Of a stretch of DNA of 64,000 nt, positions 34,860 through 36,281 are shown in pieces; the stretch's first letter is position 1, and each line of letters begins with the position of its first letter. Both the position numbers and the translations under genes were made by a program. The notes under the pieces were generated by a model that was not told the DNA's origin, searched no databases, and saw only the letters and a list, made by a program, of their open reading frames with translations. This DNA comes from Ignisphaera sp. (GTDB lineage Archaea > Thermoproteota > Thermoprotei_A > Sulfolobales > Ignisphaeraceae). The DNA is taken from the NCBI GenBank assembly GCA_038831005.1, contig JAWBKZ010000004.1:62001-126000 (forward strand). The letters run 5' to 3'.

Positions 34860-35192
34860 ATGATAGCAAGACGCCTAACTGAACATATAGTATTTAAAAT
34901 TTGGGTAAAGATAATAATGTATAAAGCTTTGTCCTGGCGAATGGTTATGAAATGTCTAGCAATTAAGATAGTGAGTTTTAAAAATATTGGAGAGAAAACT
35001 TTAGAAATATGCTCAGAAAGTAGAGAAGTTTCAACTATTTTGAATATTATTAAAAAACAAATAGACATTGAGATGGTTCAAGAGGAGTTAATGGTTGTAT
35101 GTGATAATAAACAACTTTACCTAGATGAAGAGGTTCCGGAAGAATGCAAGGTATTAATGTTGTTTCCATTAGCACTTGGTGGAACCATATAG
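34860..35192 (+). CDS. Small beta-grasp (MoaD/ThiS/SAMP-like) protein
   Basis: The core from about residue 30 (MKCLAIKIVSFKNIGEKTLEI ... ELMVVCDNKQLYLDEEVPEECKVLMLFPLALGGTI) has the strand-helix-strand layout and 'VLLFPP..GG' ending of ubiquitin-like sulfur carriers. The di-glycine is followed by two extra residues (GGTI), so a true carrier would need trimming. The first 29 residues look unlike the family, and the region 34828-34882 contains C/D-like boxes, so translation may really begin near ATG 34941 or 34947. Its gene ends exactly where a C/D box sRNA candidate begins. Function as sulfur carrier or protein modifier is inference. Confidence 0.55.
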   Translation: MIARRLTEHIVFKIWVKIIMYKALSWRMVMKCLAIKIVSFKNIGEKTLEICSESREVSTILNIIKKQIDIEMVQEELMVVCDNKQLYLDEEVPEECKVLMLFPLALGGTI

Positions 35193-35246
35193 ATATGATG
35201 TTGTGCTCTAGTCTGAGGGATGATGAATTCGAACCTCACTGATTAT
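35190..35246 (+). ncRNA. C/D box sRNA with tRNA-like guide complements
   Basis: Box order: C ATGATGT (35195-35201), 11-nt guide TGTGCTCTAGT, D' CTGA (35213-35216), spacer GGG, C' ATGATGA (35220-35226), 12-nt guide ATTCGAACCTCA, D CTGA (35239-35242). Three boxes are perfect and the C box has one change. ATATA/TATAT flanks can form a short terminal stem. The D' guide complement ACTAGAGCACA looks like a tRNA D arm; the D guide complement TGAGGTTCGAAT looks like a T arm, placing the methylated residue (fifth from the D box) at G53. It starts at the stop codon of the beta-grasp gene, in its 3' region. Confidence 0.75.
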
Positions 35247-35282: not shown

Positions 35283-36281
35283 TCAACTGTTATCTATAAC
35301 CAAGCTTATTTTGTCAAAAATTGCTATTCGTTTTATTAAATTAATCCATAGTCTATCATTACTTATAGAGCCTTTTTCTGAAAAATTGTTTATAGGACTT
35401 ATAATCAATAGCTTTTTAACTTTTATAATATCTCTAGAACCATTGTATAAATATGGCAAAAATTGTGTTGAAGGCAATGGTATCCATAAATAGTAAAAAC
35501 AGTTAAGATATTGTTCTAATACTGTAACATATGATGATAAAAATTCTATTATTAGAACATTCGAATTACAATTATCACCTATTGATATGAATTTAAATCG
35601 TCTATCGTAGTCTATAGATATTCTACAATTACTATTAAACTCACTAAATGGATCTGAACAAAGGAAAGGATTGTATGTACTAATTACCTCATAATTTCTA
35701 ATATATCTTAACGTATTTTCAATTATCTCTTTTCTACTCCATATACCTAGTAGGATGTTCATACCATCTATTGAAATGATGCCTTCATGGTGAGCTAATT
35801 GTGAGAAGCAGATATGTGCATGTTTATTAACATCTGATTTATTTATTATTATTGTAGGTATGTATTTTGCTGATACGTGGGGCATAGACATAGGATCGTA
35901 AACAAATATTAAGTCAAGGTCTTTCTTTGAAACTAGATTGAATCTCTGTAACCATATCTTTGAATCCTTTATAAATGATGCAAAGTCTAAAGGATCAGTT
36001 AATGTGGGTCTTCTGAGTAGCAATAGTGCTCCACCAGGTAACAGAATGTAATCATTAAAGTAATTTTTAATGGTATGATAATTACAGGATATAGGTAGCA
36101 TAATTGTTTTAGATGTTGTATCCTTCATAAACATTCTGTAAGCCTTTTGAAAGTATCTAACAATATTATTGAGTTCATCTCCATAATTTATCACAAAAAC
36201 CTTACGTAACAACTTTGAGGGAACCTTAATCAATTTGGCTAGTAGCACATTTGATGCCATATATAGTAGTCGATAGAACAT
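35283..36281 (-). CDS. Hypothetical protein
   Basis: A 332-aa protein I cannot place. It has no membrane segment or clear nucleotide-binding loop. Features include a hydrophobic stretch LPGGALLLLRRP, DLIFVYDPMS, IIINKSDVNKHAH and several paired cysteines (CNYH, CFSQ, CSDPF, DNCNSN) without a regular spacing. The codon use is AT-rich as in neighbours. It stands alone between two sRNA candidates. No function is proposed. Confidence 0.6.
   Translation of the reverse strand: MFYRLLYMASNVLLAKLIKVPSKLLRKVFVINYGDELNNIVRYFQKAYRMFMKDTTSKTIMLPISCNYHTIKNYFNDYILLPGGALLLLRRPTLTDPLDFASFIKDSKIWLQRFNLVSKKDLDLIFVYDPMSMPHVSAKYIPTIIINKSDVNKHAHICFSQLAHHEGIISIDGMNILLGIWSRKEIIENTLRYIRNYEVISTYNPFLCSDPFSEFNSNCRISIDYDRRFKFISIGDNCNSNVLIIEFLSSYVTVLEQYLNCFYYLWIPLPSTQFLPYLYNGSRDIIKVKKLLIISPINNFSEKGSISNDRLWINLIKRIAIFDKISLVIDNS

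Follow-up and report, generated by a model that had tools for sequence, protein, structure and literature searches.

A C/D box sRNA of Ignisphaera with a D guide predicted to address the T arm of tRNA-Asn

Can one small guide RNA direct modification to two arms of the same tRNA? This question was raised by a locus in a 64,000-nt stretch of DNA from the hot-spring archaeon Ignisphaera sp. (hereafter the window), for which an earlier note had proposed a C/D box sRNA whose two guides both looked like tRNA complements, so that it might act as a dual tRNA modifier. In this study, we analyzed the boxes, guides, orthologues and neighboring genes of this sRNA. The window's genome (G000, genus g1, which is Ignisphaera) is 1.70 Mb long and 99.5% complete.

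The sRNA and its orthologues

The whole element occupies positions 35195-35242 of the plus strand. It begins with the C box ATGATGT (35195-35201), which differs from the consensus RUGAUGA in its last base, followed by the 11-nt D' guide TGTGCTCTAGT (35202-35212; complement ACTAGAGCACA), the D' box CTGA (35213-35216), a GGG spacer (35217-35219), the C' box ATGATGA (35220-35226), the 12-nt D guide ATTCGAACCTCA (35227-35238) and the D box CTGA (35239-35242). All four boxes are therefore arranged in the order expected of an archaeal C/D box sRNA, with guides of 10-12 nt. The TGATG-CTGA-TGATG pattern of the C, D' and C' boxes was found three times in the window (0.03 expected) and 29 times in the whole genome, where the matches corresponded to 28 distinct sRNAs, whereas the reversed pattern gave no match at all. 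These counts confirmed the sRNA that had been proposed for the locus. A fibrillarin gene, representing the methylase machinery, was also identified in the genome (E 3.2e-103). The Rfam models at gathering thresholds matched only tRNAs in the window, and a scan for sigma-70 promoters and terminators, whose models are unsuited to archaea, revealed nothing above chance.

Orthologues were collected by a motif search and follow-up searches in 197 genomes of the order, among which g3 and g5 are other genera of the same family. We detected them in 14 genomes in all: 10 of the 11 genomes of g1, all three of g3 and one of g5 (G012, G013, G014 and G017 being those outside g1). No credible orthologue was observed outside the family among the 197 genomes. 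When the genomes of 84,980 species were scanned with the D-guide motif, 11 archaeal genomes were returned, all of them among the orthologues already found, together with four unrelated bacterial strings. Within g1, a convergent ORF sharing a C-terminal motif (approximately R-x-W-[IL]-S) ends 3-40 nt past the D box in all 10 sRNA-bearing genomes; in the window it encodes 332 aa (35283-36281, minus strand), has no Pfam match and belongs to no assigned family. The constant place of this gene indicates that the sRNAs of g1 are orthologues by position. The sRNA motif was absent from the complete genome of G002, also a member of g1, including at the convergent gene, so that the sRNA is dispensable.

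Alignment of 13 orthologues revealed that TGATG of the C box, CTGA of the D' box, TGATG of the C' box and CTGA of the D box were invariant. The same was true of the guide core GAACCTC, which pairs with nt 50-56 of tRNA-Asn, so that both boxes and guide are conserved across species. Position 1 of the D guide could be any of the four bases, the last position (12) also varied, and position 9 changed from C to U opposite G57, which kept the pair. Structural work has reportedly shown that, within the 12-nt spacer, guide and target form a duplex of at most ten base pairs, and a conserved core with a variable first and last position fits this limit.

Could the boxes be strings that arose by chance, with no RNA made from them? 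The sRNA is deduced from DNA sequence, and folding of the bare strand was unremarkable (z -0.13), its ends forming no stem together; this value describes a protein-free single strand, and the terminal stem and k-turn motifs of C/D sRNAs form with L7Ae bound. However, boxes and guide are kept in 14 genomes, synteny is kept within the genus, and the box-pattern count far exceeds that of the controls, which leaves chance exceedingly improbable. Judged by its sequence and conservation, the element is a real archaeal C/D box sRNA.

Targets of the two guides in the window's genome

Both guides were scored against 44 tRNA genes (identified with a covariance model) and the 16S and 23S rRNAs of the window's genome. 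The D guide formed 11 contiguous Watson-Crick pairs with nt 50-60 of tRNA-Asn(GUU), whose T-arm sequence GGAGGTTCGAAT spans nt 49-60, and 11 of the 12 bases of its complement were present in this single tRNA. Against all tRNAs of the genome, none of 400 shuffled guides scored as well. According to the N+5 rule (five nt up from box D), the predicted methyl group falls on G53 of tRNA-Asn, and the sRNA thus has a guide complementary to a stable RNA. The D guide therefore addresses a tRNA T arm, as the earlier note had read it, and very probably directs 2'-O-methylation there, with Gm53 as the predicted product. No mention of Gm53 was found in the archaeal tRNA papers searched, and to our knowledge it has no earlier report.

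Results for the D' guide were different. Its complement ACTAGAGCACA, which had been taken to resemble a D arm, was present in none of the 44 tRNAs, so that of the two strings sought in one tRNA gene only that of the D guide was found. The best tRNA matches of the D' guide consisted of 6-7 Watson-Crick pairs plus 2-4 G-U pairs, a level reached by 88 of 400 shuffles when all tRNAs were considered (p about 0.22). The match to nt 20-28 of tRNA-Asn, with N+5 at G22, is of uncertain status, and tRNA-Asn as a second target through the D' guide is weak and without statistical support in the window's genome. With regard to rRNA, the best scores in the 16S and 23S rRNAs of the window's genome were 6.9 for the D guide and 7.8 for the D' guide (p 0.72), both at shuffle level; no rRNA match explained either guide, and rRNA was rejected as their target.

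Several other readings of these guides deserve consideration. The D guide might be a broad T-arm guide acting on G53 of several tRNAs rather than on tRNA-Asn in particular. tRNA-Met, Ile, Arg(CCU) and Gln fit it with 10 Watson-Crick pairs and one G-U replacing A-U; U at guide position 3 can pair with A51 or G51, and U at position 9, present in some orthologues, with A57 or G57. For the D guides of several g1 orthologues, A57/G51 tRNAs and tRNA-Asn are targets of roughly equal fit. Broad tRNA guides have also been described in Pyrobaculum, as summarized in a review (PMC7994747, citing Lui 2018). However, position 3 is invariably U, whereas C, which would better suit the other tRNAs, never occurs there, and the sole full Watson-Crick match in the window's genome is tRNA-Asn, so that we consider a broad guide rather unlikely.

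As for the D' guide, the window's sRNA might itself be a working dual tRNA-Asn guide that reaches G22 in the D stem. The pairing with nt 20-28 comprises nine contiguous pairs (seven Watson-Crick and two G-U), its score against tRNA-Asn alone was matched by just 38 of 3000 shuffles, and the same register is found through GGCGCTC in G003, G004, G009 and G010. On the other hand, the match is unexceptional when all tRNAs are considered, there is no conservation in the guide half adjoining D', the half that sets the methylation site, and a mismatch lies beside nt 22 in G003 and G009. Moreover, the D' guides of g1 are diverse (10-12 nt); the D-stem complement (nt 22-28 or part of it) is kept in G000, G003, G004, G009 and G010 and not in the other five g1 genomes, G005, G006, G007, G008 and G011. 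A functional G22 guide thus appears improbable. We give similarly little credence to a mixed guide whose D' half is directed to rRNA or some other RNA: mixed and orphan guides are common, and the D' guide of G011 forms 9 Watson-Crick pairs with nt 51-59 of 16S rRNA, but the best rRNA match of the window's own D' guide was no better than shuffles.

The scoring procedure was also applied to other guides of the genome. As a positive control, four of them (for tRNA-Met(CAU), Lys(UUU), Val(UAC) and Ala(UGC)) placed N+5 exactly on the wobble nt 34, which archaeal guides are known to target (PMC7994747). Many others had matches of 9-12 bases in rRNA, so that the window's D guide is distinguished by its match to a tRNA. 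At least 7 of the 28 sRNAs addressed tRNAs, including L155, L169, L174, L175 and L176 (Met C34, Ala(UGC) U32, Thr T arm G51, Lys(UUU) U34 and Val(UAC) U34). In another sRNA, L160 (G000:C3:55414-55445 and on), the two guides fit two different tRNAs: the D' guide forms 12 pairs, one of them G-U, with the T arm of tRNA-Glu (N+5 about G51), and the D guide matches tRNA-Ala(UGC) in its anticodon loop, N+5 falling on U34. The window contains two further C/D sRNAs on its minus strand. One (L167, 40500-40545) has a D guide, TATGAACCTCCT, that makes nine pairs with the tRNA-Asn T arm one nt over, with N+5 at G52; its alternative target is 16S near nt 1001, with one internal mismatch. The D' guide of the other (L168, 45115-45160) forms 12 pairs, including one G-U, with nt 2657-2668 of 23S, as in an ordinary rRNA guide.

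A D' guide fitting G18 in the sister genera

The four D' guides of g3 and g5 (ACTCTACCAGTA, GCTCTACCGGCA, ACTCTATCAGCG and GCTCTATCAGCG) were scored against the tRNAs collected from the window's genome; the tRNA-Asn sequence was identical in G012, G014 and G017, and its T arm GGAGGTTCGAAT was identical in every genome where it was found. tRNA-Asn was the best tRNA for all four guides, which pair with 10-11 bases of its D arm (nt 15-24 or 15-25), a single G-U included, and in each case N+5 fell on G18, a known 2'-O-methylation site. Only 1-12 of 3000 shuffles were as good against tRNA-Asn and 6-11 of 400 against all tRNAs, so that in these two genera pairing of the D' guide with tRNA-Asn exceeds chance, as expected of a dual tRNA guide. 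The duplex positions that vary among them (2, 4 and 6) all keep pairing by alternating between C-G and U-G or between A-U and G-U, which is the expected remainder of selection for pairing. Searching the 197 genomes of the order with the D' motif alone gave four exact matches, all in orthologues of this sRNA. The D guide of g3 and g5, by comparison, forms only 8 contiguous Watson-Crick pairs with tRNA-Asn, with a mismatch at A58; tRNAs with a CGGGG stem fit equally, and 71 of 400 shuffles were as good against all tRNAs. Because of this shorter pairing and the fit of CGGGG-stem tRNAs, in these genera tRNA-Asn is better supported as a target by the D' guide.

Thus, the idea of a dual tRNA modifier lacked statistical support in the window's genome, yet it is probably right for the family, since the D' guides of g3 and g5 fit the D arm of the same tRNA at G18, a site beyond the reach of the earlier note. 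Both elbow loops of tRNA-Asn were probably targets of the family (Gm18 and Gm53), and the D' guide of the window's genome has probably drifted. The simplest history would be that of a dual tRNA-Asn guide whose D' half was retained in g3 and g5 and drifted in g1, although the D' change between these groups may have had the opposite polarity. We consider it likely, as the best explanation overall, that the locus encodes a C/D guide RNA with its D guide directed to G53 of tRNA-Asn and a D' guide that has drifted in Ignisphaera. The further proposal that a stand-alone sRNA of the Ignisphaeraceae would methylate both G18 and G53 of tRNA-Asn, and that Ignisphaera subsequently lost the D' half or redirected it (G22), has in our view an even chance of being correct.

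Proposed action, known systems and genomic setting

We infer the expression of this sRNA, as well as the processing and methylation described below, from the sequence, conservation and complementarity observed. L7Ae, Nop5 and fibrillarin bind the C/D and C'/D' motifs of this class and would do so in the sRNA at 35195-35242. The D guide would then pair with tRNA-Asn(GUU) in the T arm, either before or after maturation of the tRNA, and direct 2'-O-methylation of G53, as predicted by N+5; tRNA-Met, Ile, Arg-CCU and Gln, with one G-U for a Watson-Crick pair, may be secondary targets. In g3 and g5, the D' guide would direct a second methylation to G18 in the D loop of tRNA-Asn, and in Ignisphaera it may now be an orphan or retain a weak D-stem match (G22) after drifting.

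The sRNA shares with other archaeal C/D box sRNAs the RUGAUGA and CUGA boxes recognized by L7Ae, Nop5 and fibrillarin, guides of 10-12 nt, the N+5 geometry and the position at the 3' end of a neighboring gene (PMC7994747); such sRNAs usually target rRNA, whereas a tRNA T arm is the predicted target here. In the tRNA-targeting C/D families of Pyrobaculum, as far as the summary of Lui 2018 in this review goes (PMC7994747), one guide addresses a conserved tRNA region and the other has no clear target, which resembles the situation in the window's genome; unlike in the pattern so summarized, both guides fit the same tRNA in the sister genera. Two sites in one tRNA are likewise addressed by the C/D RNA of pre-tRNA-Trp (Cm34 and Um39; PMC7994747, PMC6313347), but that RNA is an intron of its own target and acts on the anticodon arm, whereas the sRNA described here is a separate gene and would act on the elbow. 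Elbow nucleotides are also methylated by guide machinery in the case of Cm56 in Pyrobaculum aerophilum and of G18, along with U34, of tRNA-Gln in Sulfolobus acidocaldarius (PMC7912444, PMC7668247); here, the target would be tRNA-Asn and the predicted T-arm site G53, not C56.

G18 contacts U55, and G53-C61, lying below U54-A58, forms the closing pair of the T loop (PMC7912444), so that G18 and G53 flank the contact between the D loop and T loop. Gm18 occurs in archaea, where no stand-alone enzyme has been identified and a role for guide RNAs has been proposed (PMC7912444). An orthologous sRNA family with a D' guide fitting G18 of tRNA-Asn is thus a concrete and testable candidate, for which Ignisphaera, a genus without the G18 fit, offers a natural comparison; if true, it would provide a guide for archaeal Gm18 and the first known report of Gm53. 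It also illustrates, in a single gene family with conserved synteny, how one guide stays constant as the other drifts.

Judging from its position, the sRNA probably arises by cleavage of the mRNA whose gene ends 2 nt upstream. This ORF (34860-35192, plus strand; 110 aa, or 81 aa from ATG 34947), a possible source transcript, has its TAG stop at 35190-35192, two bases before the C box. The sRNA does lie against a stop codon, as had been noticed earlier, but the beta-grasp identity once given to the ORF found no support, since no Pfam or NCBIfam family matched it. The same short ORF recurs in G004 with a TGA stop inside the C box, and another gene ends in the C box in G012 and G013; archaeal C boxes commonly harbor stop codons (PMC7994747). 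Release of the sRNA from the upstream mRNA is plausible, although the arrangement is not conserved: the upstream gene differs among orthologues, and the neighbor that stays constant across the genus is the downstream convergent gene. A different C/D sRNA (with GGCTGTGAG in the D' guide and CCGTGTTTAAT in the D guide; L197 2528, plus strand, and L198 3095, minus strand) was observed beside the same convergent gene in G002, on its other side, and beside a weak relative of this gene in G017.
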